From positions 1-26,751 of IMG/VR virus record IMGVR_UViG_3300043436_001002: a stretch of 26,751 bases of DNA, one strand, 5' to 3'. A program made the translations under genes and the position numbers. Numbering within the stretch: the stretch's first letter is position 1; every line of letters begins with the position of its first letter. Shown here piece by piece: positions 3,457 to 26,544 of the stretch. Below the pieces are notes generated by a model that saw only the letters and a program-made list of their open reading frames with translations, was not told where the DNA came from and searched no databases. The DNA comes from a virus.

Positions 3457-4029
3457 GTGAGCGACGATAAAATTTGTGCTGCATATGTTGCAGCATTTGC
3501 AGAACTGGAAGCGGCAACCAAAACAGCTAATAATCCACATTTCAAATCTAAATACGCTGATCTTCCAGCAGTGATTGACGCTATCAAGCCTCACCTTGCC
3601 AAGCATGGCCTTGCGTTTATGCAAATGCCAAAGCCAAGCGACGGCGGCATATCAATCGAAACTGTCCTGATACACAGCAGCGGCGACAAGTTGTCGATGG
3701 GTGTATTGTTTGTGCCAGCTAATAAGCATGATGCACATGGTTACGGATCGGCTTTAACTTATGCGCGTCGATATGCACTGCAAACTTGCTTTGGTTTGCC
3801 AACAGAAGATGACGATGGCAACGCAGCCGTCAAATCGCAGCAGCCAGCGCCAGCAAAGCCCATTACGCAGGAACAGTTCGCGGTGCTGCAAGACCTTATT
3901 GACCGCACAGGCACTGACGTAGCTGTCATGGCGGCGCATTACAAAGTGCCAGCAATCGCAATGCTTCCATCGACTGCGTTTGAAACAGCAAAGTCGGCAT
4001 TGGAAAGGAAGCTGCAAAATGCGGGTTGA
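3457..4029 (+). CDS. ERF family single-strand annealing protein
   Basis: The 190-residue protein belongs to the ERF superfamily of phage annealing recombinases. These coat single-stranded DNA and pair complementary strands during recombination-dependent replication and genome circularisation. Family features seen are NPHFKSKYADLPAVIDAIKP near residues 26-45, a strand-rich centre, and the hallmark GYGSALTYARRYALQTCFGL at about 95-114. The C-terminal tail is Gln/Pro/Ala-rich, then helical. The start is GTG with an AAGGAG 7 bases upstream. It leads the rightward operon and overlaps the exonuclease gene by 11 bases, consistent with an annealase-exonuclease pair. Confidence 0.92.
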   Translation: MSDDKICAAYVAAFAELEAATKTANNPHFKSKYADLPAVIDAIKPHLAKHGLAFMQMPKPSDGGISIETVLIHSSGDKLSMGVLFVPANKHDAHGYGSALTYARRYALQTCFGLPTEDDDGNAAVKSQQPAPAKPITQEQFAVLQDLIDRTGTDVAVMAAHYKVPAIAMLPSTAFETAKSALERKLQNAG

Positions 4030-4675
4030 TGTCGAACAGCGCAGTGAAGATTGGTATACTGCACGATGCGGTTCGCTGGGGGCGTCACAGGTTGCTGACG
4101 CCCTATCCCGCACCAAAAGCGGTTACAGCGCCACCAGAACCAACTTGCGCCTTAAACTGGCGCTGGAGAGGCTTACAGGTAAGCAAGCGGCTGGCTTTAC
4201 CAGTGCAGCAATGCAGCATGGTATCGACACCGAAGCTGAAGCCAGAATAGCCTATTCATTCGACCAGAACGTCACTGTTACCGAAACAGGGTTGGTCAGA
4301 CATTCAAGCATCCCGTGGACGCACTGTTCGCCTGATGGTCTTGTTGGAGATGATGGGCTTGTAGAAATCAAGTGCCGCCAACCAGCGGGTCACCTTGAAA
4401 CGCTAACGTCAGGCGAAATACCATCGCAGTATGTTACGCAAATCAACTGGCAACTTGCTTGTATGCCAGAACGCCAATGGGTTGATTACGTTTGTTACAA
4501 CCCAGACTTTCCTGAAGAACTGAAACTTTTCATTAAAAGGCACTATCGAAATGACGAACAAATCTTGGAATTGGAAAAATCTGTTTGCGAATTTCTTTCA
4601 GAAGTCGAAGCCGATCTCGAAACCATTAACAGCATTAGAAGAAGGGTACAGACTGGCGAAACTATCATCCGATAA
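4019..4675 (+). CDS. YqaJ/lambda-exonuclease-like recombination nuclease
   Basis: The 218-residue protein matches the YqaJ viral recombinase family, PD-(D/E)xK exonucleases that resect double-stranded ends for the partner annealase. Motifs are SEDWYTARCGSLGASQVADAL (substrate groove), HGIDTEAEA with the first acidic residues near 72-74, SPDGL with catalytic Asp106, VEIKC with Glu116 and Lys118, and YVTQINWQLAC with a conserved Gln at 141. The ATG at 4019, inside the end of the ERF gene, has AAGGAAG upstream. The length is normal for the family. Its 3' end overlaps the next gene by 125 bases. Confidence 0.92.
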   Translation: MRVDVEQRSEDWYTARCGSLGASQVADALSRTKSGYSATRTNLRLKLALERLTGKQAAGFTSAAMQHGIDTEAEARIAYSFDQNVTVTETGLVRHSSIPWTHCSPDGLVGDDGLVEIKCRQPAGHLETLTSGEIPSQYVTQINWQLACMPERQWVDYVCYNPDFPEELKLFIKRHYRNDEQILELEKSVCEFLSEVEADLETINSIRRRVQTGETIIR

Positions 4676-6285: not shown

Positions 6286-6519
6286 ATGGCAGTAGGATCA
6301 AGACTTAACTTAGATCACCGACGCAAAGCACCGCCCATGAGCAGCCGCCAGGAATGGTTGGCAAAGCACTATAATGAATCAGTGGCGCAATCCAGCAAGG
6401 CACTTTTGAAGGCGCAACTGACAACAGGTCAACACGCATTAGACAAGGATCGCTTTGTGCAGACAGCTATTAATCATGGCTGGATATTGCACATACCAGA
6501 TCGTTTATTGCTTCAATGA
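6286..6519 (+). CDS. Hypothetical 77-residue protein
   Basis: The gene has a good GGAG ribosome site 7 bases before its ATG and follows ssb by 14 bases, so it is likely translated. The product is basic, helical and soluble (RQEWLAKHYNESVAQSSKAL) with no recognised domain. It is the last gene before an internal promoter at about 6529. A DNA- or polymerase-binding early role is possible but not supported by a motif. Confidence 0.65.
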   Translation: MAVGSRLNLDHRRKAPPMSSRQEWLAKHYNESVAQSSKALLKAQLTTGQHALDKDRFVQTAINHGWILHIPDRLLLQ

Positions 6520-6528
6520 AAAAAGGTG

Positions 6529-6557
6529 TTTACATATATAAAAAGCAGCTTTATATG
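6529..6557 (+). promoter_or_regulatory. Second rightward promoter with the same -35 motif
   Basis: TTTACA (6529-6534) and TATATG (6552-6557) are 17 bases apart. The sequence TTTACATATATAAA (6529-6542) differs by one base from the palindrome at 3382-3395. It lies in the 79-base gap ahead of three tiny genes, which suggests the same regulator controls both units. Confidence 0.5.
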
Positions 6558-6598
6558 AATGGGAGGGGCAATCGCCCCACCATTTAAGGATTCTGACC

Positions 6599-6817
6599 AT
6601 GATTAAACCAGCACAGACAGCCCCTATGGGCAAAAAGTATCGCATATCATCAGATAGCGCATCAGTTTGGCCTTTGCGCGGTGCGGACGGTAAGACGTTT
6701 GCAGAGCGCCGCATCTCATGCGTCCACAACTATGCGTACACCAGTGGCATAGGCATGGGCCATGTGCTTTATCGCTGCACTTTGTGTGGGGACACTTACG
6801 AAAAGGACGTATCGTGA
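6599..6817 (+). CDS. Hypothetical small Cys-containing early protein
   Basis: The 72-residue product has a C-terminal CVHNY...YRCTLCGDTYEK segment. One Cys near residue 41 and a C-x2-C near 61-64, with a His in between, suggest a small zinc-ribbon-like fold, possibly incomplete. The rest is not recognised. A short AAGGA lies upstream of the ATG. It is the first gene after the internal promoter and overlaps the start of the next tiny gene. Confidence 0.65.
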   Translation: MIKPAQTAPMGKKYRISSDSASVWPLRGADGKTFAERRISCVHNYAYTSGIGMGHVLYRCTLCGDTYEKDVS

Positions 6818-6891
6818 CCCTGCGCCAATTCCTACACGACAATTTCGGCTGGGATATTTACGACTGGGCTGATGATGAGATTAGGTTTTAA
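6814..6891 (+). CDS. Tiny acidic 25-residue protein
   Basis: A GTG-initiated frame overlaps the stop of the previous gene (GTGA), with AAAAGGA 6 bases upstream. The product (TLRQFLHDNFGWDIYDWADD and six more residues) is aromatic and acidic. The good ribosome site, the overlap and the 10-base distance to the next gene favour translation. Function unknown. Confidence 0.5.
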   Translation: MTLRQFLHDNFGWDIYDWADDEIRF

Positions 6892-6901
6892 GGAGAAACA
6901 A

Positions 6902-7030
6902 ATGACCGCCGACAACTGGCTTTTTATAACAGTCATGGGGGTAATAATCCTCGCCGCCTATCTGAACGCCACTAAGCCGAAAATAACCCAGCAAGAGCGC
7001 GAAGAGATGGAAGAAGATTGGTGGTCATAA
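6902..7030 (+). CDS. Small single-pass membrane protein (42 residues)
   Basis: The ATG follows an AAGGAG at ideal spacing. Residues about 6-21 (WLFITVMGVIILAAYL) form one membrane helix. The remainder is a charged cytoplasmic-type tail (QQEREEMEEDWW). It is the last gene before the terminator. Small early membrane proteins in phages often interfere with host membrane processes or superinfection, but no specific role can be seen here. Confidence 0.65.
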   Translation: MTADNWLFITVMGVIILAAYLNATKPKITQQEREEMEEDWWS

Positions 7031-7032
7031 AG

Positions 7033-7071
7033 AAAACGGGCCGCTCCATAACAAGCGGCCCGTTTTTTATT
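7033..7071. terminator. Bidirectional intrinsic terminator
   Basis: A 13-bp perfect inverted repeat (AAAACGGGCCGCT at 7033-7045 and its complement at 7054-7066) has an 8-base loop and is flanked by a T-run on the plus strand and A-run/T-run symmetry on the other. It lies exactly between the convergent early rightward and late leftward units, so it should stop both. Confidence 0.92.
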
Positions 7072-7277
7072 TAGCCGTTGATGATTTGCAACAGGCCAGC
7101 GGCAGCGGCAGCGACAAACGCTAACGCGGCAGCAACCGTGGCCTTCCAGCCCAGCTTACCTTCGGCAACATGTTCCATAGGCAACAGTTTGCCAGTGGCC
7201 TTCTTGATGATGGCTTTTTCGGCTTCTTTCTTCAAAGCCTTGGTAGCCTCTTTTTTCAATGTGCTTTTAATATCCAT
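7071..7277 (-). CDS. Small membrane protein, possible holin-like
   Basis: The 68-residue product has a Lys/Ala/Glu-rich N-terminal helix (TLKKEATKALKKEAEKAIIKK) that looks amphipathic, and one C-terminal membrane helix (ATVAAALAFVAAAAAGLLQII). A GGAG ribosome site precedes the ATG. It is the last late gene, immediately after the endolysin, a common site for lysis genes, so a holin or pinholin-like role is plausible. A structural or membrane-anchoring role cannot be excluded. Confidence 0.7.
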   Translation of the reverse strand: MDIKSTLKKEATKALKKEAEKAIIKKATGKLLPMEHVAEGKLGWKATVAAALAFVAAAAAGLLQIING

Positions 7278-7287
7278 GTTTATTCTC

Positions 7288-7902
7288 CTATAACCAAGTT
7301 GCGTACTTCTTGGTCTTCAGTTTGCGGTCATCAAGGCCATGTGTTCCACCATTGATGCGCTTTGTGAGGGCAAGGATTGCAGCATCATTGATGCCTTGGT
7401 CGCAGATGCTCCACAACTTGTTTGCGTCAAAGAACCACAATGCGCTTTCAAAGCCCAGTTCTGTAGCCACAAGGTCTGGATTGTCCAAAATCTCCTGTTC
7501 GCGCCCGATATACTTACCGAATGCGCGATAGTTATTCTTGCCCGTCAATTGGAGGGGGCCGCGCCCACGGTATTTCCAGCCATCGCCTGACGCTTCGTCG
7601 CCGTTGCCCATGCGATTTGCATAGACGCGATTGGCAATCTTTTGTGGCTGACGCTCATAAGCACGGGCCAAAGCATCCGTGGGAAAATACTTCCCAAAGA
7701 TGCCGCGCAGACCCTTTGCGCCGTAGTTCAGGTTCTCACTGAACGCTTTAAAATTGCCGCTTTCATGCGCTGTTTGGGCAAAGAAGTGCGCGGCACGGTT
7801 CTTATTCAGCTTGAAGTGGTCGCAAGCTTTTTTCAGTGTTGATGGGCCGAACGCACCGTCTGGGTGACATCCGCATTTACTTTGAAGGTTCATCATGCTC
7901 AT
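7288..7902 (-). CDS. GH19 chitinase-like endolysin
   Basis: The 204-residue enzyme belongs to glycoside hydrolase family 19 as used by phage lysins to cut the peptidoglycan glycan. Key parts are FFAQTAHESGNFKAFSENLNY with the catalytic Glu in HES and a second Glu nine residues on, then YRGRGPLQLTGKNNY, the family substrate-binding motif, and ELGFESALWFF. A short N-terminal stretch (LQSKCGCHPDGAFGPSTLKK) resembles a truncated peptidoglycan-binding repeat. No signal or SAR segment is present, so it needs a holin. The ATG at 7902 overlaps the upstream stop (ATGA) with GGAG 10 bases before. Confidence 0.92.
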   Translation of the reverse strand: MSMMNLQSKCGCHPDGAFGPSTLKKACDHFKLNKNRAAHFFAQTAHESGNFKAFSENLNYGAKGLRGIFGKYFPTDALARAYERQPQKIANRVYANRMGNGDEASGDGWKYRGRGPLQLTGKNNYRAFGKYIGREQEILDNPDLVATELGFESALWFFDANKLWSICDQGINDAAILALTKRINGGTHGLDDRKLKTKKYATWL

Positions 7903-8414
7903 TTTCCAGCACTCCGCCAATCAGGGAAATCAAGTTCATCGACTACGCCGTCACCGTTGGCATCATAGCGCAAGTCACCGCGATACTTTTCCCACGGTTC
8001 CATATCGTCATCATCGTCATCGTCATCGAATGATGGTTCATCATCAATTGCACTAGTTGCAGCATCTTTAAGGATTGTTGCTGGTGCAACCATGTCAGGT
8101 GTAAGCGGCAGCGGGTCTGGTTGTGGCGCTACAGGGGCCAGAGGCTCTGGTTCTGGATCATCGCGGTCTTCTGGTGGTGGCGGAACCAAATCGCCCTTCA
8201 TGCCCATCAGGGTTGCATATGAGCCAGCTACAGCGCCAACAACCGAAGTCATGACGTATGACAGCAAACCAAATACATCTTTATTATCAATAATCTCATT
8301 CGATACGAATAGGCCGACAATCATTGCGCAAGTGATGGCGATAATGACAAATGCCATTGTTTTTGCCGCCAGCAGCAAAGCTTTGATCCGTGCCTCTAAT
8401 AATTTATCATCCAT
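7899..8414 (-). CDS. Two-helix membrane protein with EF-hand-like loop
   Basis: The 171-residue protein has two membrane helices in its first 75 residues (about 17-39 and 50-70). A Pro/Glu/Asp-rich linker (PPPPEDRDDPEPEP) follows, then a run of eight Asp, and a C-terminal DANGDGVVDELD loop at about 152-163. That loop has Asp/Asn at EF-hand positions 1, 3, 5, 9 and 12, like a dockerin or calcium-binding loop. It lies directly before the endolysin with overlapping codons, so a holin or lysis-timing role is possible. Calcium binding is inferred from the loop only. AAAGGA precedes the ATG. Confidence 0.8.
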   Translation of the reverse strand: MDDKLLEARIKALLLAAKTMAFVIIAITCAMIVGLFVSNEIIDNKDVFGLLSYVMTSVVGAVAGSYATLMGMKGDLVPPPPEDRDDPEPEPLAPVAPQPDPLPLTPDMVAPATILKDAATSAIDDEPSFDDDDDDDDMEPWEKYRGDLRYDANGDGVVDELDFPDWRSAGK

Positions 8415-8948: not shown

Positions 8949-10605
8949 CTACAATCTCCCGCCACTTGGCGTCATTAGTTTGGGTCATCCGATACATCTC
9001 AAAGTTGGCGTCACGCAGCCTTCTGTTGCGGTATATATCACGAATTGCGTAAAAGTCAGCCCTGTCAGATAATGCTACTTGTCGGTAAGCATTGAAGGCT
9101 GGAACCGAACCCATTTCAGCGATGGTTTCCGATTGTCCTTCCGCCATTTCGCTTTCTGATTTTTCAGATGATGCGCTTGCAGCCACGGGCGCTGCATTGC
9201 TTCCGCCGCCAATGTTATTCAGGATTTCAAATGTCGTGGTCATTGAAACAGGGCCACCAGCCGAAATGGCAGCATCAAGTGGTGATGAACCAACGCCACC
9301 ACCATTATTCCCACCACCGCCAGCACCAGCACCGCCTGAACCAAAATCAACACGCATTTGGAAGCTGCCGAAGCCTTGCGACGATTGAGCGTTGTTTTCA
9401 AACGCCGATGATTGGCTGTTTTGGGTAGCATCGCCAAAGGATGCGTCCTGCATACCTCCTGCGCCATCCTCAAGCGACATAGCAAGCTGATTTGATGCTT
9501 CCTGCCCTAATTCACCCGAAGATGCGTCTTGGCCCTCTAAATCGCTTTCTGTGCCGTCTGCGGCAAGCGCAGCAACTTCATCAGGGGATAGCCGTTCTTC
9601 ATCAGAACCAAGGTCTTCCAAATCACGTTCTGCAATCAATTCTTCGATGGCATCATCTTCGACAATATCATCTGTTTCAATCGCAGCGTCAGCTTCAATC
9701 GATGCTTCTGCTGTTTCCAATGCCTCTTGCGCGGTTTCAAGCACCTGTTCGATGTCGGCAACATCTTCAATCTGCACTTCTTCTTGGGTTTCTTCCATCG
9801 CCGCTTGTTCGACGGAAGCCACAGCAGCTTCAAGCGCACTTTCAGCCGCACTTTCAATCGGATCAGGTGCGCCCACATCAATGGCTATTGATATTGGTGG
9901 GCAGGATGGATGCATGGGCGTTGCATTGCAGTCTATTGCCACTTCATCAGGGATCGGCGCACCATATGTCAAAAGGCCAGATTGGTTTTGCAAGGATTGC
10001 GGATTGCGTCCGTAGAAAAGCGAAATATTGTCATCCGCTTCAGGGCCAGTGATGCCAGCCGTAAAGTCGCGCCAACCCGATGCAGACAAAGACCCGTAGT
10101 TGAATTGGATATTGCCGTTGCTGAACAGACCTATTTCAAACGTATTTTGATTGTTCGTCCCGTATTCTTGGACACCATACCACCCAAACAGCGCGGCCCC
10201 ATCAGTTACGCGATAGTATGGGTTGCCAGTAAAGCTAATTAGATCAGACCAGTATGCGTAAATCGTGTTGCGCTGTGCCTGTTCGAGAGGCTGACCATTG
10301 CAGCAAAGGTTCGCCGCGCTTTGAAACGATACAAAGCCATTGCTGGACACCCAAACGTCGGTGAAGGTCTGGCCCCAATATTCAAACTCAAAGCCAAGGG
10401 ACACCTGTCGTGTGTTGTCGTCGCCCAGATTAAGTGGCGTCATCGTTGTCGGAGCGCCAAGGATTTGCGGCGGAATAAGCGCAGGTTCGTAGGTCTGCGC
10501 GAAAACGGGTGTAGCGCAAGCCAGCAGAATAACCTGCAAAACGTATGTCTTATTTCTCAACAGGGCGAAGCTCGACGTTCTCTGTCCACGCAGCGCGGGC
10601 TTCAT
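8932..10605 (-). CDS. Secreted NIDO-like domain protein
   Basis: The protein (about 557 residues) starts with a Sec signal (YVLQVILLACATPVFAQ). Residues about 45-220 resemble a nidogen (NIDO) beta domain: FEFEYWGQTFTDVWVSSNGF, then NTIYAYWSDL, then FEIGLFSNGNIQFNYG and FTAGI. The middle is a very acidic Ala/Glu/Asp helical region (EQVLETAQEALETAEASIEA), followed by a Gly-rich segment and a helical, basic C-terminus. NIDO domains are known mainly from extracellular adhesion proteins. The start is uncertain: ATG 10605 overlaps the upstream gene by 56 bases, whereas a TTG at 10560 gives an 11-base overlap and a more normal signal peptide. Function in the phage is unknown. Confidence 0.82.
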   Translation of the reverse strand: MKPALRGQRTSSFALLRNKTYVLQVILLACATPVFAQTYEPALIPPQILGAPTTMTPLNLGDDNTRQVSLGFEFEYWGQTFTDVWVSSNGFVSFQSAANLCCNGQPLEQAQRNTIYAYWSDLISFTGNPYYRVTDGAALFGWYGVQEYGTNNQNTFEIGLFSNGNIQFNYGSLSASGWRDFTAGITGPEADDNISLFYGRNPQSLQNQSGLLTYGAPIPDEVAIDCNATPMHPSCPPISIAIDVGAPDPIESAAESALEAAVASVEQAAMEETQEEVQIEDVADIEQVLETAQEALETAEASIEADAAIETDDIVEDDAIEELIAERDLEDLGSDEERLSPDEVAALAADGTESDLEGQDASSGELGQEASNQLAMSLEDGAGGMQDASFGDATQNSQSSAFENNAQSSQGFGSFQMRVDFGSGGAGAGGGGNNGGGVGSSPLDAAISAGGPVSMTTTFEILNNIGGGSNAAPVAASASSEKSESEMAEGQSETIAEMGSVPAFNAYRQVALSDRADFYAIRDIYRNRRLRDANFEMYRMTQTNDAKWREIVDAQYK

Positions 10606-11488
10606 CGCCAATCAATCCCAAGAATGGGCAGGGTGTTCCGGCCATCTCCATTGCCCTAAAGACGCGGAAGTCTTGGCATAGAAGGCTAACAGCGGCGACA
10701 CGCATACCCATATCATACAGGGTCTTGGACAGCTTCATCCGTTCGCAGTTTTGGTCGCGCACAGTGCGGCCAGCCGACAAGCCGATGATCTGCGTCTGCA
10801 CAGCGCCTGATTGCCCAGTGGTGCAAAGGTCCTGGCTGTAGGACATCATCGACGGCGCAATGGCGCTGGGCGGCGGTGATTTGATGTTCTGGTCGATTAC
10901 CTGACGATTAATGCTTTCGCTGTAGCTTTTGCTATCGCTCACGTTGACATTGTTGTTCTGGTTGACGTTATTGTTGTTGTTATTGCTGTTCGTCGTTTGG
11001 TTAATCGTGCTGGTATCGTTGCTGGTGCTGTTCGTATTGACAGTGCTGTTGTTGTTGCTGTTGACTGTCTGATTGATTGTGCTGCTGCTGACATCCGTAT
11101 TGAAATTGCGGTTCGTGTTGTCGGATGTGCTGGTCGATGTGTTCTGGTTGATGTTGGTCATCGTCCCAGAATTGATATTATAATTGGTGTTCGTGCTGGT
11201 GGACGTATTCTGGTTGATGTTCGTCATACTTCCAGAATTGATGTTCTGGTTCACGTTCGTGTTGGTGTTCGTGCTGGTATTGACGTTGTTATTGGTGTTC
11301 GTCGATGTGCTGGTCGAAGTGTTGTTGTTGTTATTTGTGTTTGTGCTGGTGGACGTATTTGTGTTGTCCGATGTGCTGTTTGTGGTGGTGTTATAGATAT
11401 ATTCCGTCGGCGCTGTGGAAGTGGCCTGTGCCAATACCATAGACGATGACGCAGCTATCGCGATAAAACCCAGCACAAATTGTTTCAT
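10550..11488 (-). CDS. Secreted Asn/Thr/Ser-rich protein
   Basis: The 312-residue product has a clear signal peptide (MKQFVLGFIAIAASSSMVLA, then Q). Residues about 28-200 are almost only Asn, Thr, Ser and some Val/Ile, in degenerate repeats such as NINSGTMTNINQNTSTSTNT. Residues about 210-312 form a distinct folded-looking domain with four Cys (DLCTTG, DQNCER, LLCQDF, GTPCPF) that could form two disulfides outside the cytoplasm. The gene lies between a small membrane protein and the NIDO-like protein. No family is recognised. Its low-complexity region is prion-like in composition. Confidence 0.85.
   Translation of the reverse strand: MKQFVLGFIAIAASSSMVLAQATSTAPTEYIYNTTTNSTSDNTNTSTSTNTNNNNNTSTSTSTNTNNNVNTSTNTNTNVNQNINSGSMTNINQNTSTSTNTNYNINSGTMTNINQNTSTSTSDNTNRNFNTDVSSSTINQTVNSNNNSTVNTNSTSNDTSTINQTTNSNNNNNNVNQNNNVNVSDSKSYSESINRQVIDQNIKSPPPSAIAPSMMSYSQDLCTTGQSGAVQTQIIGLSAGRTVRDQNCERMKLSKTLYDMGMRVAAVSLLCQDFRVFRAMEMAGTPCPFLGLIGDEARAAWTENVELRPVEK
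10940..11395 (-). repeat. Degenerate Asn/Thr/Ser-coding repeat tract
   Basis: Within the secreted Asn-rich gene, short units rich in GTTGTT/GTGCTGGT on the plus strand repeat with variation. Two longer near-identical blocks code for the INSG(S/T)MTNINQNTSTSTNT unit. The tract is likely prone to slippage and length change. It is coding, not an intergenic or CRISPR repeat. Confidence 0.75.
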
Positions 11489-12087: not shown

Positions 12088-12578
12088 GCGGCGCTCGATG
12101 GGATGCTTTCGACAGCAGGTGATAAAGGCCACAAAATGTTGAACGGGTCACTTTGGGTTGTAACATCACGCAACGCTTGGCGATACGAGGTCCAATCCTG
12201 CATCTCAATATTGGAAAGTGGCGCGTCAGGTAGCTGCGTCCAATCAGTCCGAGATAGAATGAAGTTACGCTTGTAGCGCACACCGTTCCATTCTTGCTCA
12301 GTTCGTGCTGCAACTTCTTCTTCTGTCATAGGCTCTACGGCCCAAGTCTGCCGCCAACGGCCAAACTGGTCTTTAACGGGAGCAACTTCTACAGCCTTCT
12401 CAAACGTGTTGAGATCAGGTTGGTTGCTGAAGTCATACAGACCAAAACCTAGAGCCTCAATGTCCTCTGGCACGAACGGCCATGAAAAACTTGTGTCCGG
12501 AAACAACGCACGGAAATTGTCCATAATGACGGCGTGGCCTACAGGCTGACCGTCAACAAGTTGAATAAACATTGTCAT
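12084..12578 (-). CDS. Phage tail/fibre assembly chaperone (Phage_tail_APC-like)
   Basis: The 164-residue protein ends with the signature of the tail assembly chaperone family near fibre genes: RYKRNFILSRTDWTQLPDAP, then WTSYRQALRDVTTQSDPFNI. The N-terminal half (FIQLVDGQPVGHAVI and Trp/Phe-rich strands) is like DUF4376/Tfa-type proteins. It probably helps the upstream Gly-rich fibre fold and trimerise. The ATG overlaps the fibre stop (TAATG) with AGGAA upstream. Confidence 0.85.
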   Translation of the reverse strand: MTMFIQLVDGQPVGHAVIMDNFRALFPDTSFSWPFVPEDIEALGFGLYDFSNQPDLNTFEKAVEVAPVKDQFGRWRQTWAVEPMTEEEVAARTEQEWNGVRYKRNFILSRTDWTQLPDAPLSNIEMQDWTSYRQALRDVTTQSDPFNILWPLSPAVESIPSSAA

Positions 12579-13708
12579 TATATTGTTCCTGTATTTGTTG
12601 ATGGGAAAAGGCGCGTGTTACCTGGCCAGATGATACGGACTGCACCACCGCCGCCATTCGATCCAAAGAACTGTTCAAAGGGAGGGGCGTAGAATCCACC
12701 CGCGCCGCCGCCACCGCCGTAAGCTGTACCGGAGCCACCGGAACCAGCACCACCATGAAATGTTGCGCTAGTACCACCAGCGCCATTAGCGCCTTGACCA
12801 AGTAACCCTACGCCTCCGCCGTTTCCGCTTTCGGTGCGCCCGTAATAATCAAAATATCCATTTTCGTCTGCGTCTTCACCATAGAAGGTCGAGCCCCTAC
12901 CGCCGCCGCCAGCGCCACCAGTTCCCGCAGTCCCGTTGCCAGGTGTCCCTCCGTAGTCACCGGCTGCGCCAGGTGTCCCGCCGTTGCCGGTGTACCCTCC
13001 TGCTCCGTTACCTCCGCTAGAGTTAGTTTGTCCGCCGTTTCCGCCGCCATCGCCATAGCGTCCTGCGAACGCAGAACCAAAACCGCCAACGATTGCTGAA
13101 CCAGTAGGAGTAAAAAAAAGGCTGTCAGCGCCTTGATTACCGGACTGACCATCATTCCTACCAGTGCCGCCAGAGCCAACGACAATAGAATGAGAATTGC
13201 CAGGAGTTACCGCGATGTTATTTTTCCAACCAAGGCTTCCTGCTCTTCCGCCATCAGTAACACCCCCACCCATGCCGCCGCCAACGCAAACAACAGACAC
13301 GCTCGTTACACCCGCTGGGACGATGAATGTGTAAGTCCCTGCCGTTGTGTAAACAGCCTCAGTTGGTTCCGCCCTAGAGGTGATGCTCCATGTCGATTGA
13401 GTAGCCCCAATGCTCACAACAAATGAAATCGTAGTGCTGTAGCTCGACGAAGAAGTGCCGCGTACAGTGAAGGTTTGCCCAGGGGATATTGTCCCTGACG
13501 TTGCGTATGTTCCGCCGTTCACAGAACCCTGACCACCATTAGTCACTGACCAAGCTGTGGGCGTGTCGTAGCCAGTCGGCGTGATGGTATTTGATGTTGT
13601 CAGGGTAGACAGGCTGGCGGCGGTCACATTGTTGAAGCCGAAAGCATTCGGATCAAGGTCTGCGGTTATACCACCCGTCATCAGTAATGCGCGAGATATG
13701 CTATCCAT
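12578..13708 (-). CDS. Glycine-rich tail fibre protein
   Basis: The 376-residue product starts MDSISRALLMTGGITADLDP, continues with beta-rich Ser/Thr repeats, and from about residue 125 has the entry AGTYTFIVPAGVTSVSVVCVG of the Gly-rich fibre domain. The rest is largely Gly/Asn/Ser repeats (GGGGGAGG-like), typical of polyglycine-helix receptor-binding tips. It ends with GGGGAVRIIWPG, a common C-terminal strand of such fibres. It probably binds host surface sugars or proteins. The start at 13708 follows the previous gene by 4 bases. Confidence 0.85.
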   Translation of the reverse strand: MDSISRALLMTGGITADLDPNAFGFNNVTAASLSTLTTSNTITPTGYDTPTAWSVTNGGQGSVNGGTYATSGTISPGQTFTVRGTSSSSYSTTISFVVSIGATQSTWSITSRAEPTEAVYTTAGTYTFIVPAGVTSVSVVCVGGGMGGGVTDGGRAGSLGWKNNIAVTPGNSHSIVVGSGGTGRNDGQSGNQGADSLFFTPTGSAIVGGFGSAFAGRYGDGGGNGGQTNSSGGNGAGGYTGNGGTPGAAGDYGGTPGNGTAGTGGAGGGGRGSTFYGEDADENGYFDYYGRTESGNGGGVGLLGQGANGAGGTSATFHGGAGSGGSGTAYGGGGGAGGFYAPPFEQFFGSNGGGGAVRIIWPGNTRLFPSTNTGTI

Positions 13709-13712
13709 CGTT

Positions 13713-14588
13713 TTACGCCGTGTAGTTAACTTGAGATGCTGCACGCCAATTTGTGCCAGCATCGTCGGTTACAAAAGTAATAAGGTGAACGCGGCTGGTT
13801 GTCAGCGTCGGAGCAGTTCCACCAGGCCATCTCACTGTTGTCGGCCATGTGATCGTTCCGCTGGTGTGAGTCACCTCAAGGGTAAAGGCAAATGCCCGTG
13901 TTGAAGGCGCATTGCTAAACGTGAAAGTGCTGTTTCCAGCAATCGTCTTGGTGAAGAAGTTACCCAGAGAGCAATCAATGTCTAGGGCAGCAACGGCAAC
14001 AATGTTGCTGCGTATAGGGCCAAGAGCATCTGTTGTCGCAAAGGTCGCCGTGCCAGTGAATGTAGGTGAAGCTAAAGGCGCAGCACCTGTTACATCAGCC
14101 ACAGGGATCGCAGCAGATGCCGTCATGGTGCTTGTGCCGTTACCCTTAATATATCCCGTAAGAGTAGTTGCACCCGTACCGCCGTTAGCGACAGGTAGTG
14201 TGCCTGTGACATTGGATGTCAGGTTTACAGTGGTAAGGTAACCGCTTGGATTCGTTGCGTTATAAGGCGTAAAGCCAAGGGCTGTCGTAACTTGAGTAGA
14301 TGTGATGCCTGTAAGGTATGTATCTGTGTCTAGCGAGTAAGTGTTGGCAGCAGTCTTGCGAACAATACCCGTCGTTCCAGACAGGGCCGCAATGGCAGTT
14401 AGGTCACCATCAAGCGGCTGATAGTTGGCAAGAGCCGACTCACGGGCCAGTGGATACCCACCCACCTGAGTACCATCATGGACAACTAGGGTGTCCTTGG
14501 TGGTATCGACGGTGACCTCACCCACAACGCCTGTAAAGGTAGCGTGTTCGGTAGTTGTACCGCGACGAAGTTGAACTTGCTTAGGCAT
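13713..14588 (-). CDS. Tail fibre with Mtd-type N-terminal domain
   Basis: The 291-residue protein begins with the N-terminal virion-binding domain used in several fibres, including Bordetella phage Mtd (PKQVQLRRGTTTEHATFTG, then GEVTVDTTKDTLVVHDG). Repeats shared with the adjacent large fibre follow, such as TGTLPVANGGTGATT and VTTALGFTPYNATNPSGY. The C-terminus (TLEVTHTSGTITWPTTVRWP) is beta-rich with a terminal NWRAASQVNY. It is probably trimeric. It is separate from the large fibre by a TAATG overlap. Confidence 0.88.
   Translation of the reverse strand: MPKQVQLRRGTTTEHATFTGVVGEVTVDTTKDTLVVHDGTQVGGYPLARESALANYQPLDGDLTAIAALSGTTGIVRKTAANTYSLDTDTYLTGITSTQVTTALGFTPYNATNPSGYLTTVNLTSNVTGTLPVANGGTGATTLTGYIKGNGTSTMTASAAIPVADVTGAAPLASPTFTGTATFATTDALGPIRSNIVAVAALDIDCSLGNFFTKTIAGNSTFTFSNAPSTRAFAFTLEVTHTSGTITWPTTVRWPGGTAPTLTTSRVHLITFVTDDAGTNWRAASQVNYTA
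14238..14423 (-). repeat. 62-codon fibre block, copy in smaller fibre
   Basis: Residues 56-117 of the 291-residue fibre (from YQPLDGDLTAIAALSG to ATNPSGY) match residues 160-221 of the 1041-residue fibre at 17051-17236 with few differences. This indicates duplication or recombination between fibre genes. Confidence 0.8.
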
Positions 14589-17500
14589 TAAAAGAGTCCT
14601 CCGAAATCGTCATAGCTGTCTAGACTTCCGGTAATTAAACCCCAGTCTTGGTTTGAATCGTCTAATGGCGTATACCCCAGTGCCGTAGTTACATCGCTGG
14701 AAGTCAGTGAAAGTGCGCCACCAAGCGTGAGTGAGCCAGAAGATGTTACACTACCTGTAAGCGTAATACCAGACACTGTGCCTGTGCCGCCAACAGATGT
14801 GACTGTACCTGTGTTGGTAGTATAGCCACTAGGATTGCTTGCAGAATAACCGCCAAGGGCATTTAACGCATTAGCAGCAGTAGTAGCACCTGTACCACCG
14901 TTTGCTATGGGCAGTGTTCCTGTGACCTGTGATGTAAGGCTAATGCCAGAAAGAGTGCCACCAAGGGTCAACGATCCGCTCGTTGTGACCGTTCCTGTCA
15001 GCGTAAGACCATTTACAGTCCCTGTGCCGCCGACAGACGTTACTGTGCCGACGTTTGTTGTATATCCGCTTGGGTTGGCTGCTGGGTACGCTCCGAGGTT
15101 CGTAAGAGCGGTTGCTGCGTCTGAAGCACCCGTGCCACCATTTGCCACCGCTACAGTGCCAGACGTAACCTGAGAGCCTGAGATGGCGATAGATGTGTTG
15201 GTGACGCCTGTGGCTTGCCCCTGAGCATTGAACGCAATCACAGGGACTGAAGACGCGCTACCGTAGGTGCTTGCCGTTAGCCCCGTGTTCGTGATGCTAA
15301 AGACCGTGCCAGCCAGCGACAGGCCAGTACCAGCCGAATATGTAACTGGAGCAGCAAATTGCGTAAACACTAAGCCTGTAGTGCCAACAGTAATAGGCAA
15401 TGGCGTCTGCTGCACCCATGATGTGTTGGATTGTGTTGTCCCTGCCGTGACAATGAAAAAGTCACCAGCATCAATCTGATCTACACCTGTGCCAGAACTA
15501 TCAAAGTCGGTGGCGCGAGTCAGAATGTACGGCGTTGAGCCATCACCAACTTGCGTTACAGTGTAGATGCCGTTGTTCGCTGAAGCGGCTTCGTTCTTAA
15601 CTAAGACGCGGTTACCCACAACAGCAGTTACGCCGTCAATGCTCAGTGCGCCGTTGGCGTTTGCCGTAAGCGTTGCACCGACACCACTTGAGCCATTGCT
15701 ATATGTGTTGGTAGGCAAAGCGGCAGTTGTCGCCAAGCGGACAGATTGATGGAAGTTAATACCTGACGCGATGCTGTCAGCGTAAAGTTTGTTAACAATG
15801 TCTGTGCCGCCACTTGGCACTGCTGTAATAGTGCCGCTGGTAAGCGCAATTGATGTAATATCGGTGTTTGCGCCCAATGCCGCAGCACTGAGGCTAGTCC
15901 GCGCCGCACCAGCCGTAGTCGCCCCTGTACCGCCGTTGGCAACAGGAAGAGTACCAGTGACGTTTGATGTCAGGCTTACAGTCGAAAGGTAGTTACTTGG
16001 ATTCGTCGCATTGTATGGCGTATATCCCAGCGCCGTAACAATCGACTTCTTTTCCCATAAGTTTGTCGATGTGTTGTAGAACAGGCCGTCGTTGTTCGCT
16101 GGTGACTGAGCCGACACATTGTGCAACTCATCCATCTCATAGCCGTTTTGGACTTTGACGAATAGTTTGCCCTGCGTAGGGTGAGCGTGTTCTACAACCG
16201 CCATGTAAACCAGGTGCTGTGGAGCATATGGCTTGGTTACCGTCAGTGTTCCAGCCGTTGTGGGGCTTAGATAAAGCTGCTGACCATCTGTGTATGCAGA
16301 GGTGTCAATGTTAGTGATTGTGCCGATCAGCGTCACATTGCCATTGGCATTGTTAGCGATGTTGGCAGTAATCAAGCCTAGTGTCTGTGCTGATGTTGCA
16401 TCGCCAGTTGCGATTGCCTTGCTGACAGTTGAAAGCTGGCCAGTGGCTCCACTGATGTATACTGCCGTGCCTTTTGTTAGAGTTGCGCCAGTGGTGTTGC
16501 GAACAGGCAAAATAACATTGGATGCTGATGTAGCGAAGGCAGCAGACAGATCAATAGCTGTTGTACCTGTAATTGTTACGGAGCCATCTGCTGAGGCAAT
16601 GGTTTGAACAGCCGTATCAGCCTTAGCCCCCTGGGCCGCTGTAGCATATGCAGAAGCATCTGTGGTAGCCGCAGTACCCAAACCGAGGGCTGTCCGCGCC
16701 CCAGAAGCAGTAGTCGCGCCAGTTCCGCCATTAGCTATGGCAAGTGTGCCGCCAAGCGTGAGAGTGCCTGACGTTGTAATAGGTGAGCCAGTAAACGTGA
16801 GGCCAGTTGTGCCGCCGGATGCAGCTACGGATGTTACTGTGCCTGTTTCGCCACCGCCACTTGCTGCGATAGTGAAGTTGGGATACGTCCCTGTAACCGT
16901 GACGTTTGTGCCAGCCGTAATGCTTACAACTTGATCAGGGGCAGTATTAGTGACCGTGATCGATCCGCTTGAAGTGATCGGGCTACCAGAAACACTAATG
17001 CCTGTGCCAGCAGTTAGACCAACGCTTGTGACTGTTCCAGTATTGGTGGTGTAGCCAGCAGGATTCGTAGCATTGTACGGCGTATAGCCTAGCGCAGTTG
17101 TAACCTGGCTGCTTGTAATGCCTGTAAGATAAGTATTGGTATCCAGAGAATATGTGTTGGCATCAGTCTTGCGGATCAGGCCAACCGTTCCTGCCAAAGC
17201 AGCAATAGCTGTTAGATCACCGTCAAGCGGTTGATACGTTGTAGCCGCTGTCGCACTTGTTAGGTATGGCGACAAGGCCGATGAAGTAATATAGCCAGCA
17301 GGGTTTGTTGCATTGTATGGCGTAAACCCAAGAGCCGTTGTGACGTTCCCAGATGTCAGCGATAGGGTTCCACCGAGTGTCAGTGACCCAGATGTAGTAA
17401 TGTTACCCGTTAGTGTCAGGCCGCTAACTGTTCCAGCGCCAGTTACAGATGTAACTGTTCCTCCAGCACTAACACTTGCAGTAGTTTGGGTTGTTCCATC

Positions 17501-17713
17501 TGGAAACTTAAAGCCACCAGATGTGCTTTCAACAATCCCAGTCGCAGTGATAGTTCCGGTTTTGCCAACGGTAAATTTGGACACACCACCGATCTGAATA
17601 TCAATCAGCTTTGAACCAGACGCACTGGCAGTATCAGTGACATTCAACTTGATGCCGTTGAACGAAGTACCAGCATTGTTCCAAGTGTCAGTCAAATCGT
17701 AGATAAATGCCAT
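14588..17713 (-). CDS. Large repeat-rich tail fibre protein
   Basis: This 1041-residue protein is built mainly of short beta repeats. One unit class has TVTSVGGTGTVSGITLTGSV, another is TGTLPVANGGTGATT, and a third is VTTALGYTPYNATNPAGY. The first 60 residues (FIYDLTDTWNNAGTSFNGIKL) form a non-repetitive attachment part. Around 620-800 a non-repeat insertion (NFHQSVRLATTAALPTNTYS and VVGNRVLVKN) resembles a fibre knob module. The C-terminus ends LDSYDDFGGLF. It probably forms the long tail fibre shaft. AAGGGAA lies upstream of its ATG. Confidence 0.9.
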   Translation of the reverse strand: MAFIYDLTDTWNNAGTSFNGIKLNVTDTASASGSKLIDIQIGGVSKFTVGKTGTITATGIVESTSGGFKFPDGTTQTTASVSAGGTVTSVTGAGTVSGLTLTGNITTSGSLTLGGTLSLTSGNVTTALGFTPYNATNPAGYITSSALSPYLTSATAATTYQPLDGDLTAIAALAGTVGLIRKTDANTYSLDTNTYLTGITSSQVTTALGYTPYNATNPAGYTTNTGTVTSVGLTAGTGISVSGSPITSSGSITVTNTAPDQVVSITAGTNVTVTGTYPNFTIAASGGGETGTVTSVAASGGTTGLTFTGSPITTSGTLTLGGTLAIANGGTGATTASGARTALGLGTAATTDASAYATAAQGAKADTAVQTIASADGSVTITGTTAIDLSAAFATSASNVILPVRNTTGATLTKGTAVYISGATGQLSTVSKAIATGDATSAQTLGLITANIANNANGNVTLIGTITNIDTSAYTDGQQLYLSPTTAGTLTVTKPYAPQHLVYMAVVEHAHPTQGKLFVKVQNGYEMDELHNVSAQSPANNDGLFYNTSTNLWEKKSIVTALGYTPYNATNPSNYLSTVSLTSNVTGTLPVANGGTGATTAGAARTSLSAAALGANTDITSIALTSGTITAVPSGGTDIVNKLYADSIASGINFHQSVRLATTAALPTNTYSNGSSGVGATLTANANGALSIDGVTAVVGNRVLVKNEAASANNGIYTVTQVGDGSTPYILTRATDFDSSGTGVDQIDAGDFFIVTAGTTQSNTSWVQQTPLPITVGTTGLVFTQFAAPVTYSAGTGLSLAGTVFSITNTGLTASTYGSASSVPVIAFNAQGQATGVTNTSIAISGSQVTSGTVAVANGGTGASDAATALTNLGAYPAANPSGYTTNVGTVTSVGGTGTVNGLTLTGTVTTSGSLTLGGTLSGISLTSQVTGTLPIANGGTGATTAANALNALGGYSASNPSGYTTNTGTVTSVGGTGTVSGITLTGSVTSSGSLTLGGALSLTSSDVTTALGYTPLDDSNQDWGLITGSLDSYDDFGGLF
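17051..17236 (-). repeat. 62-codon fibre block, copy in large fibre
   Basis: This is the partner of the block at 14238-14423 (starts YQPLDGDLTAIAALAG, ends ATNPAGY). Together they mark a module shared by the two neighbouring fibre genes. Confidence 0.8.
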
Positions 17714-24146: not shown

Positions 24147-24626
24147 GCTTTTTCTGCCTCTCTGCGTCCAGCTTAAAGTAAGCGACCCACTCGTTATAAT
24201 CGTCTATTGAGATTTCTTCAATCTCTGAGATGCTTTTACCAAGCCGATCCGCCAAGGTCAGTAGATTGAACCTAAACGGATCGTCTGTTAGTTTTTTTCA
24301 TGCTCCTCGACGCTGGTTCCGCTCATAAACGCAGCGGCCACAGTCGAGATAACACCAACCTCTTCACGCATCAGTATGGCTTTATCCTCAAGCGTGAATA
24401 GCTTTTCACCTTGGCCATTCTCTGCCTTGAGGATGATCAGATCGACCATCGCCTCAAACGATGCGTTATTAAGGAATTGAGGATGCTTGCGCTGTATCCG
24501 GTTAAGTTCGCCAGCAAGCAGGGGGCCGTAATAAACCTTTTCCGGCGCTCCCTTTTCACCCCATTCTGCAACTTCAATATGTGTCTTGGTAGATGTACGC
24601 TCTGCAATACGCTTTGAAATACTCAT
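24124..24626 (-). CDS. Tail assembly chaperone, -1 frameshift form (gpGT-like)
   Basis: A -1 shift at the heptamer 24297-24291 extends the 112-residue protein by 55 residues to a TGA at 24124-24126, giving 167 residues. The extension (LTDDPFRFNLLTLADRLGKS then ISIDDYNEWVAYFKLDAERQ) looks like a real domain of the T type that binds the tail tube protein, and this frame has no stop until just inside the tape measure gene. It also fills an otherwise unexplained 141-base gap. The frame and the slippery site are read directly; the use of the shift is inferred from siphophage practice. Confidence 0.85.
24245..24297 (-). promoter_or_regulatory. Programmed -1 frameshift signal
   Basis: The slippery heptamer A-AAA-AAC is at 24297-24291 in the correct phase (GAA AAA AAC, then TAA). 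Seven bases downstream, a 7-bp stem is formed by CGATCCG (24283-24277) and CGGATCG (24251-24245) around a 25-base loop. This spacing is right for a frameshift-stimulating hairpin. Confidence 0.8.
24288..24626 (-). CDS. Tail assembly chaperone, short form (gpG-like)
   Basis: The 112-residue unshifted product is a typical chaperone that coats the tape measure before tube assembly. It starts MSISKRIAERTSTKTHIEVA and ends VEEHEKN at a TAA directly after a slippery A-AAA-AAC. Its position between tube and tape measure genes is the conserved location of such chaperones. Most ribosomes should terminate here, giving the short form in excess. Confidence 0.88.
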   Translation of the reverse strand: MSISKRIAERTSTKTHIEVAEWGEKGAPEKVYYGPLLAGELNRIQRKHPQFLNNASFEAMVDLIILKAENGQGEKLFTLEDKAILMREEVGVISTVAAAFMSGTSVEEHEKN

Positions 24627-24643
24627 AATTATATCCTTTTAAA

Positions 24644-25036
24644 TTAAACCGTAGCAGCACTCAATGAACCAGTACCCTGAAGTGTGATTGTGGATTCTAC
24701 CATGCCGTCAAAGCTACCTGTGATAGTTTTGCCAGTGACAATTGCACTGCCCGTCAGATACGCATCACCAGATGCCGCACCTTCTGGCATAAAGCGAACA
24801 GTCACTTCTGAGCCAACGAGCAGAGCGCCTTGGCCAGTGGTGTCCGTTTCATCCCAAAATACGTCAACCGAACCTGTCCACGCTTTCAAAGTGGTCTTAA
24901 AGGTGCGGTAGCTATCACCCATCGAAGTGTCTTCCGCAGTGTCAGCGGTTTCTTCTACTGAATAAGAGCGAATTTCAACAATGCTGTTGGTCGAGCCAAC
25001 TTTAACAGTGCCTTCAGAGCCAGTATGCGTTGCCAT
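24644..25036 (-). CDS. Major tail tube protein paralogue 2
   Basis: The 130-residue product is close to the gene just upstream (25048-25446), about four fifths identical by hand alignment: both start MATHTGSEGTVKVG, share EETADTAEDTSMGDSYRTFK and end with GSFDGMVESTITLQGTG. The fold pattern is the tail tube type, where hexameric rings stack to form the tube. It lies directly before the chaperone gene, the usual place for the tube gene. It differs mainly in a loop near residues 74-97. Which copy is the main tube subunit is unknown. Confidence 0.88.
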   Translation of the reverse strand: MATHTGSEGTVKVGSTNSIVEIRSYSVEETADTAEDTSMGDSYRTFKTTLKAWTGSVDVFWDETDTTGQGALLVGSEVTVRFMPEGAASGDAYLTGSAIVTGKTITGSFDGMVESTITLQGTGSLSAATV

Positions 25037-25047
25037 CTAGTTAGTCC

Positions 25048-25446
25048 TTACGCCAAGGTGGAGAGCGTCAAAGCACCAGTGCCTTGAAGCGTGATTGTGG
25101 ATTCGACCATACCGTCAAAGCTACCAGTTACGGTCTTGCCAGTAACGATTGCCTCACCGGAATAATACTTTTCAGATACACCAGAAGAAGCGCCTTCTGG
25201 GAAGAAGTTTGCAGTGACTGTTGAGCCTACAGAAAGGGCAACCTGACCGTCCGTATCAGTCTCATCCCAGAAAACATCAACCGATCCGGTCCATGCCTTC
25301 AGAGTTGTCTTGAACGTGCGATACGAATCGCCCATTGAGGTATCTTCAGCAGTGTCAGCCGTTTCCTCAAGCGAATAGGAACGGATTTCAGCAATGGCAT
25401 TTGCGCCAACCTTAACAGTTCCCTCTGAACCAGTGTGCGTAGCCAT
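25048..25446 (-). CDS. Major tail tube protein paralogue 1
   Basis: The 132-residue product is the tandem twin of 24644-25036. It differs by a few insertions, such as SSGVSEKYYSGEA around residues 88-100, and a changed C-terminus (ALTLSTLA). The conserved core KTTLKAWTGSVDVFWDETDT is unaltered, so both copies should fold and could assemble in one tube. The ATG overlaps the upstream 47-residue gene stop (TAATG). Confidence 0.88.
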   Translation of the reverse strand: MATHTGSEGTVKVGANAIAEIRSYSLEETADTAEDTSMGDSYRTFKTTLKAWTGSVDVFWDETDTDGQVALSVGSTVTANFFPEGASSGVSEKYYSGEAIVTGKTVTGSFDGMVESTITLQGTGALTLSTLA

Positions 25447-25589
25447 TACTCAGTCTCCTCTTTAGCCTCTGGCTTCGCCTTGGGCTTTTCTTTAATGGGC
25501 GTCCAGCCAATCTGCGCATAGCGGCCAAGATCAACCTCACAGGCAAGTATTTCATCGCCAGTTTTGTTATAAACTTTGACCATCTTCAT
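25446..25589 (-). CDS. Small 47-residue late protein
   Basis: The frame lies exactly between the tail terminator paralogue and the first tube gene. It starts with an ATG overlapping the upstream stop (ATGA) and ends with a TAA overlapping the tube ATG. The product begins MKMVKVYNKTGDEILACEVD and ends in a Lys/Glu/Pro-rich tail (KEKPKAKPEAKEETE). Similar short genes next to tube genes are common in siphophages; a role in tail assembly is inferred from position. An alternative start is the ATG two codons later. Confidence 0.75.
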   Translation of the reverse strand: MKMVKVYNKTGDEILACEVDLGRYAQIGWTPIKEKPKAKPEAKEETE

Positions 25590-26029
25590 CGCGGTGTCTC
25601 CAGATCAGCAAGTAGCGTAACATATTGGACTGCGTAAGACAACCGCGCATTAGCAACTGGCTTCTCGCCTTCAACATTAATGTCAACGTCCGACTGCGAC
25701 AGAATACAGCTTTTCACTAATCCTGACAACTGGAAATCAGAACCGATGGCATCCTCAATCAAAACACAGGCATCATCTACCTGGTTTATGATTGTTGAAC
25801 TTTGGCCCTTAATAAAAATCTCTACAAAAACTTGCAGTGACCCCATAGATGTTTTTGTTCCTATGGTCGCCAAGGAATTAGTCTGGCTGTTCGTGTATAT
25901 CACAGCCGCTGGAAGTTTATCATCATCCAGTGCGTAGGATCGCATCTTATACACGCGCCCAGAAAAGAAAGGCAGAGCGCCTATGATGTCAGCGATTCTG
26001 TCGCGTATCTGGTTATTAATGTGCGACAT
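25586..26029 (-). CDS. Tail terminator-like protein, paralogue 2
   Basis: The 147-residue product resembles gpU-type minor tail/terminator proteins. It is a paralogue of the upstream gene: MSHINNQIRD at the start, YALDDDKLPAAVIYTNS, SLATIGTKT and GLVKSCILSQSDVDINVEGE match its neighbour, with roughly 40 percent identity by eye. It is shorter by a block near residues 17-43. It probably sits at the head-proximal tail end and stops tube growth. The gene starts directly at the upstream stop. Confidence 0.78.
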   Translation of the reverse strand: MSHINNQIRDRIADIIGALPFFSGRVYKMRSYALDDDKLPAAVIYTNSQTNSLATIGTKTSMGSLQVFVEIFIKGQSSTIINQVDDACVLIEDAIGSDFQLSGLVKSCILSQSDVDINVEGEKPVANARLSYAVQYVTLLADLETPR

Positions 26030-26544
26030 TAGATAGACACCTGGCAGTTATCGATGGCGGTCATGTACTTAACGTCAAAAATCATTTTACCAGTGCCAAT
26101 TGCCTTTTCGCCAGTAGTATTGACGCTAAAATCTGATTGCGTCAGCACACAGCTTTTGACAAGTCCACCGAAACTGTAGTCAGCCTCAATTGCGCCGTTT
26201 AATTCAGCGCAGAAGCTTTCTATGTTTTCAAAGATGTCGAGGCTTGATCCTTTGTTAATGACATCAACCCTTAGTTCAAGGTTGTGTGACAAAGTGCGAC
26301 TGCCAATAGTGGCAAGGCTCGTTACATCGTTTGTCGTGTAAACAATCAGGGCCGGAAGCTGTGCATCATCAAGCGCATATTTACGAAACTTGTACAATGT
26401 GCCTGTAGAAAGCAATCCGCCTTCCTGTCGGGCCGCAAGTTCAACATTGAATCGGTCCAGAATTACAATTCCGAACCTGTCGTAAATAAAGTTTACCAGC
26501 AGGGTGGCGGCATAATCTCTGATCTGTTGCCGAACGTGGCTCAT
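26029..26544 (-). CDS. Tail terminator-like protein, paralogue 1
   Basis: The 171-residue product matches the next gene downstream in order of motifs: MSHVRQQIRD, YALDDAQLPALIVYTTN, SLATIGSRT, GLVKSCVLTQSDFSVNTTGE. It has an extra 25-residue stretch (VILDRFNVELAARQEGGL). Being next to the head-tail joining gene, it may be a neck or terminator protein. It starts two bases after the stop of the upstream gene. Confidence 0.78.
   Translation of the reverse strand: MSHVRQQIRDYAATLLVNFIYDRFGIVILDRFNVELAARQEGGLLSTGTLYKFRKYALDDAQLPALIVYTTNDVTSLATIGSRTLSHNLELRVDVINKGSSLDIFENIESFCAELNGAIEADYSFGGLVKSCVLTQSDFSVNTTGEKAIGTGKMIFDVKYMTAIDNCQVSI

Follow-up and report, generated by a model that had tools for sequence, protein, structure and literature searches.

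Tandem tail tube genes of an uncultured siphophage change in step at the predicted stacking surface, beside an exchangeable terminator cassette

The DNA analysed here (the window) spans 26.7 kb and covers part of the genome of a siphophage whose relatives include the CRP-822-type roseophages; the phages concerned are uncultured. On the minus strand, the order of transcription runs from the end of a head-tail joining gene, truncated by the window edge, through two terminator genes (D, then C), a 45-codon ORF, two tail tube genes (B, then A) and a chaperone gene to the tape measure gene, and all four tube and terminator ORFs were found on this strand at the positions given in Table 1. The small ORF is 91-96% identical in the closest relatives and is kept beside the tube pair. 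Near the end of the chaperone gene lies an A_AAA_AAC slippery heptamer (24291-24297, minus strand), from which a -1 shift opens a 55-codon extension resembling the -1 frame extension of the chaperone gene in the lambda G/GT system.

Table 1. Features of the tube and terminator region
Feature	Position	Strand	Remarks
Tail assembly chaperone (G-like)	24288-24626	-	directly downstream of the tube genes
Tail tube protein copy A	24644-25036	-	downstream copy, 130 aa; 1-residue insert near residue 15, Arg in strand 76-82 (RFMPEG), lacks the final Ala
Tail tube protein copy B	25048-25446	-	upstream copy, 132 aa; 2-residue insert (xSEKYY) and C-terminal TLA, both typical of the B clade
Stacking hairpin of copy B	25264-25368	-	residues 27-61; core co-evolving with copy A
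Small ORF	25449-25583	-	45 aa; separates the terminator pair from the tube pair
Tail terminator C	25586-26029	-	147 aa; tube-proximal terminator gene
Tail terminator D	26029-26544	-	171 aa; upstream copy, with an extra stretch (insert) of ~25 aa near the N terminus

The family assignments, already correctly proposed in an earlier note made from the letters of the window, are firm by profile as well as by predicted fold. Both tube proteins match PHROG 1407 (major tail protein; 5e-11 and 3.5e-14), and both terminators match PHROG 4204 (tail terminator; 3e-18 and 2e-14). Among solved structures, the nearest in both sequence and predicted fold are the tail tube and terminator of roseophage R4C (PDB 8gtb, 8gtf), a phage described as having a single protein of each kind (PMC10276861). 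The profile match of the tube to 8gtb reaches 6e-10, and the AlphaFold2 model of copy B (pLDDT 81), a β-sandwich with a long stacking hairpin and a short helix, finds 8gtb as its best PDB match (E 3.9e-6). Fold modelling of the terminators covered D, whose predicted structure (pLDDT 70) matches the R4C terminator 8gtf (E 1.2e-7) and lambda gpU, while C was placed by its sequence family.

The closest isolated relatives are the CRP-822-type roseophages CRP-811, -821, -822, -823 and -831 (PMC12629253). CRP-811 and CRP-822 share the order capsid, head-tail joining protein, terminator, tube, chaperone and tape measure; however, phages of this type possess one tube and one terminator gene, unlike the paired genes of the window, and none of the isolated relatives found carries two tube genes. 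In the CRP-822 record (PV211012, 5913-6327) a frameshift divides the tube gene, which is annotated as a shortened major tail protein; the tube genes of CRP-811, -821, -823 and -831 are free of this frameshift.

The two tube genes are directly adjacent, and their products are identical at 106 of 129 aligned residues (82%, close to the 80% estimated in the earlier note), with an alignment score 47 SD above that of the shuffled protein. At the nucleotide level identity drops to 72% overall and 43% at third positions (dN 0.14-0.16; dS 1.3-2.6, saturated). Such protein identity combined with saturated synonymous sites indicates that the tube duplication is old. Copies A and B form two separate clades (support 100/94 and 95/94, respectively), which are paired in 47 genomes, and their order is fixed across all two-tube loci, without inversion or switch elements. 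One locus (L054) behaves differently: its position in the whole-protein tree suggests an independent second duplication (83/89), but its upstream copy possesses the B-clade insert and the TLA ending, and the tree of the periphery leaves it unplaced; this locus was removed in control runs. Both copies are under strong purifying selection, with dN/dS (ratios of sums) close to 0.08 (A 0.086, B 0.080, as compared to 0.14 for single-copy tubes). Relaxed selection, which the earlier note had named among the signs that would speak against its reading, is seen in neither copy, and a decaying duplicate or pseudogene was rejected on the same values. Ribosome-binding sites of at least 4 bases precede 46 of 49 A genes and all 45 B genes; as both copies are selected and both are equipped with such sites, both are likely to be used. 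The two copies cannot be told apart by net charge.

Four scans of viral contigs and one of genome contigs yielded 123 distinct deduplicated loci, which were fetched by similarity to the tubes or to terminator D, so that counts of arrangements are not natural frequencies. Among complete regions, 48 carry one tube and one terminator and 28 carry two of each. Two tubes with one terminator were counted in 11 regions, of which 10 are real, since that of CRP-822 (L002) owes its apparent second tube to the frameshift, and a single locus (L052) combines one tube with a paired terminator cassette. Along the tube tree, two-tube phages show at least six changes of terminator arrangement (single or paired). 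The nature of these changes is apparent from closely related loci: L029 (paired) and L032 (single) are 84% identical in DNA as far as the first ten terminator codons and 94% identical from the terminator's 3' portion onward, across both tubes and beyond, and the middle alone differs. The junctions fall at the same places when L006, or the window itself, is compared to L007. Given these positions and the same tube pair behind them, single and paired terminators are exchangeable cassettes, with recombination taking place in the conserved ends of the cassettes themselves. A tube pair consequently needs no terminator pair, as the latter can be replaced by a single terminator. The expectation of the earlier note that the two duplications would track together is contradicted by the 10 loci with two tubes and one terminator, by L052 and by the repeated switches, which, along with the precise cassette exchange, rule out a coupled duplication.

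Some peculiarities of individual loci were noticed during the survey. A single terminator in L024 (540-1046) combines a D-like N-terminal insert with a C-terminal part of the single type and is possibly recombinant. In L029, which carries two tubes, the tape measure frame (6296-8083) is apparently broken into 420 and 173 codons, which may be a sequencing error. Median tape measure lengths in the comparison concerning two-tube phages were 584 vs 616 aa, with widely overlapping ranges; the idea of longer tails in two-tube phages (p 0.01 when relatedness is ignored) was set aside.

The terminator-like neighbours C and D are indeed paralogous, as had been claimed: 58 of 146 residues are identical (40%), and the alignment stands 24 SD above shuffled sequences. 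Either tube copy resembles its partner (82%) more than it does the CRP-811 tube (63-66%). Terminator C, by contrast, shows the same identity to D (40%) as to the CRP-811 terminator (40%), and a long branch (0.7) leads to the D clade. These distances and the D branch make it likely that the tube and terminator duplications differ in age; the earlier note had drawn this conclusion from the divergence, but percent identity alone does not suffice for dating, since the terminator family is generally less conserved. No co-evolution of C with D was seen, their identity being 0.388 within and 0.385 between genomes (p 0.125).

The divergence of the tube copies is distributed unevenly along the protein. 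We defined a core consisting of residues 27-61 (the stacking hairpin) and 100-118 (a strand region), with boundaries chosen after viewing the alignment; in the 47 genomes possessing both copies, A and B are 95-96% identical in the core and 68% identical elsewhere, in line with the conserved core and variable loops described previously. Core variants differ by lineage, yet the same variants occur in A and B of one genome. Examples common to both copies are RTHK (L029, L032, L065 and L054), EDSSMGD (L027, L030 and L031), KGW (the L027 and L036 groups) and SASFDG (L024, L025, L029 and L065). Amino-acid identity between A and B in the core is 0.937 within genomes as compared to 0.880 between genomes, a value equalled in none of 5000 permutations, while identity at four-fold synonymous sites does not differ (0.333 vs 0.329). 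Phylogeny was taken into account by counting same-state replacements on the same branch of a tree built without the core columns. The core showed 21 such replacements where 4.0 were expected; leaving out L054 gave 14 (expected 1.8), and leaving out both L054 and L065 gave 12 (expected 1.4). No excess was detected in the periphery (2 against 3.2 expected), and the excess was not significant at synonymous sites of the core (7 vs 4.3, p 0.12) or at all third positions (22 vs 19.3, p 0.29). When columns were ranked without any partition, residues 33, 51, 53, 45, 108, 107, 30 and 55 came out on top, all of them within the hairpin or the 100-118 strand region. Consistently, A is not separated from B in the core tree, while the two are largely separated in the tree of the periphery. 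Both copies are conserved, under selection and co-varying at the core.

In R4C, the long loop of the tube protein touches the ring below through V33, W36, M38, F46 and T48, and V49 and K107 take part as well; laterally, contacts within a ring include D67, E70, E103, R91 and K126 (PMC10276861). On a profile alignment at 24% identity, the co-evolving columns would fall in or beside this ring-to-ring set; M38 is invariant among the tube proteins studied here. Of the positions that distinguish A from B, 69 and 128 align with or beside lateral salt-bridge residues of R4C in this distant alignment, and 15-19, 80-82 and the insert at 90-93 are near lateral residues in sequence, so that the A-B differences may sit partly around the lateral interface.

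Taken together, these results are probably best explained by one old tube duplication whose two products build the same tube with a matched core, accompanied by an independent terminator pair. According to this reading, A and B would have arisen by a single duplication in a siphophage lineage akin to the CRP-822-type roseophages, and both would be structural subunits of the same tail tube; co-assembly is what we infer from the sequences. In each lineage, A and B would retain matching versions of the stacking hairpin and of its receiving strand region, with the consequence that rings or subunits of either kind could stack on the other. Meanwhile, the N-terminal turn, the short helix, the 76-98 strand/loop region and the C terminus would have diverged into A- and B-specific versions, a peripheral divergence expected to favour pure A and pure B rings, or rings in which A and B alternate regularly, over random mixing. 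An obligate two-paralogue tube with strict alternation, either A-B-A-B within a ring or A rings alternating with B rings, is a more tentative proposal, which we consider possible rather than probable. The terminator pair would be an independent neck cassette, swapped with a single terminator by homologous recombination. The earlier note had argued for a heteromeric or two-zone tail from the paired duplication; that argument fails, but the tubes themselves are selected and change in step at the predicted stacking surface, which is what a tail containing both proteins, heteromeric or two-zone, would lead one to expect.

Matching cores could also arise if the annealing recombinase of the phage copied core tracts between the tandem genes, the copies being otherwise independent, for instance a dosage pair. 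Exchange between A and B does happen, as indicated by identical core tracts of 48-56 nucleotides in the same or neighbouring genomes (L025; L030_A/L027_B; L032_A/L057_B), and the window encodes ORFs that look, by eye, like ERF-type and YqaJ-type proteins (3457-4029 and 3980-4675). However, the longest identical runs have a similar length within and between genomes (mean 17.4 vs 16.6), the within-genome identity of four-fold sites is lower in the core (29%) than in the periphery (41%), and same-branch changes at synonymous sites are not in significant excess. Recent conversion as the general cause of core identity is thus unsupported by run lengths and four-fold sites. Old conversion followed by synonymous saturation could yield the same core pattern and could have contributed to it; as the main explanation, we regard such concerted evolution as unlikely. 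A shared third partner, such as the tape measure or the distal tail protein, could likewise drive parallel change without direct contact between A and B.

Tube-initiator paralogues form specific rings in contractile systems, and one tube copy might similarly provide a few specific rings, for example the first on the distal tail protein or the last under the terminator, with the other forming the shaft. The diagnostic A/B differences fixed in the periphery and the fixed gene order of all two-tube loci would suit such a zoned tail. Yet both hairpins change in step, whereas an end-specific ring would be expected to follow the distal tail protein or the terminator on one face, and a terminator-specific ring is made less likely by nearly identical tube pairs occurring beside quite different terminators; we find this arrangement somewhat less plausible still than concerted evolution. 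That the copies are alternative subunits, one used per virion or condition and the other held as a reserve or host-range variant, would fit the outer regions differing most but is very improbable in view of the equal purifying selection, the conserved ribosome-binding sites of both genes in one apparent operon, and a fixed order devoid of inversion or switch elements.

Siphophage tubes are usually regarded as polymers of a single protein. Two forms of tail tube protein in one phage are nevertheless already known. In SPP1, gp17.1 and gp17.1* are produced from one gene by frameshifting, differ by a C-terminal FN3 domain and occur in a 3:1 ratio (PMC8718954); the likeness lies in the two forms within one siphophage, but here there are two genes and no added domain. 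Cluster DJ Gordonia phages and the cluster EL Microbacterium phage Damascus possess two major tail protein genes, which are 43% identical and have another gene between them, and one copy is inferred by the authors to have been acquired by transfer (PMC12859696, PMC11080557). The pair described here is instead 82% identical, directly adjacent and apparently derived from a lineage-internal duplication, with a measured co-variation of the core. In T5 pb6 and the P74-26 tube protein, duplicated tube domains are fused in one chain, and their halves alternate in trimeric, pseudo-hexameric rings (PMC5717097, PMC10034513); an alternating ring made from the separate genes of the present phages would be the unfused counterpart. 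Our literature search for tail-tube paralogues forming heterohexamers revealed no described case, and in-step evolution of separate tube genes next to an independent terminator cassette was not found described in the literature searched. Phages with one tube, with two tubes, and with two tubes and varied neck cassettes constitute a natural series, in which the passage from a homomeric to a heteromeric ring stack, and the interface that must stay matched, become testable, and in which the tail cap can be exchanged as a cassette with the tube unaltered.

Elsewhere in the window, the recombinase-like ORFs lie on the plus strand (3457-4675), resembling an ERF-type annealing recombinase and a YqaJ-type nuclease by eye; such proteins could account for the frequent cassette exchange. 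Three consecutive large ORFs occupy 12578-17713 on the minus strand, the upstream two of which (13713-14588 and 14588-17713) have repeats in common, such as VANGGTGATT, of the sort found in tail fibre-like proteins. Another minus-strand ORF (10550-11488) contains a long repeat tract rich in Asn, Ser and Thr.
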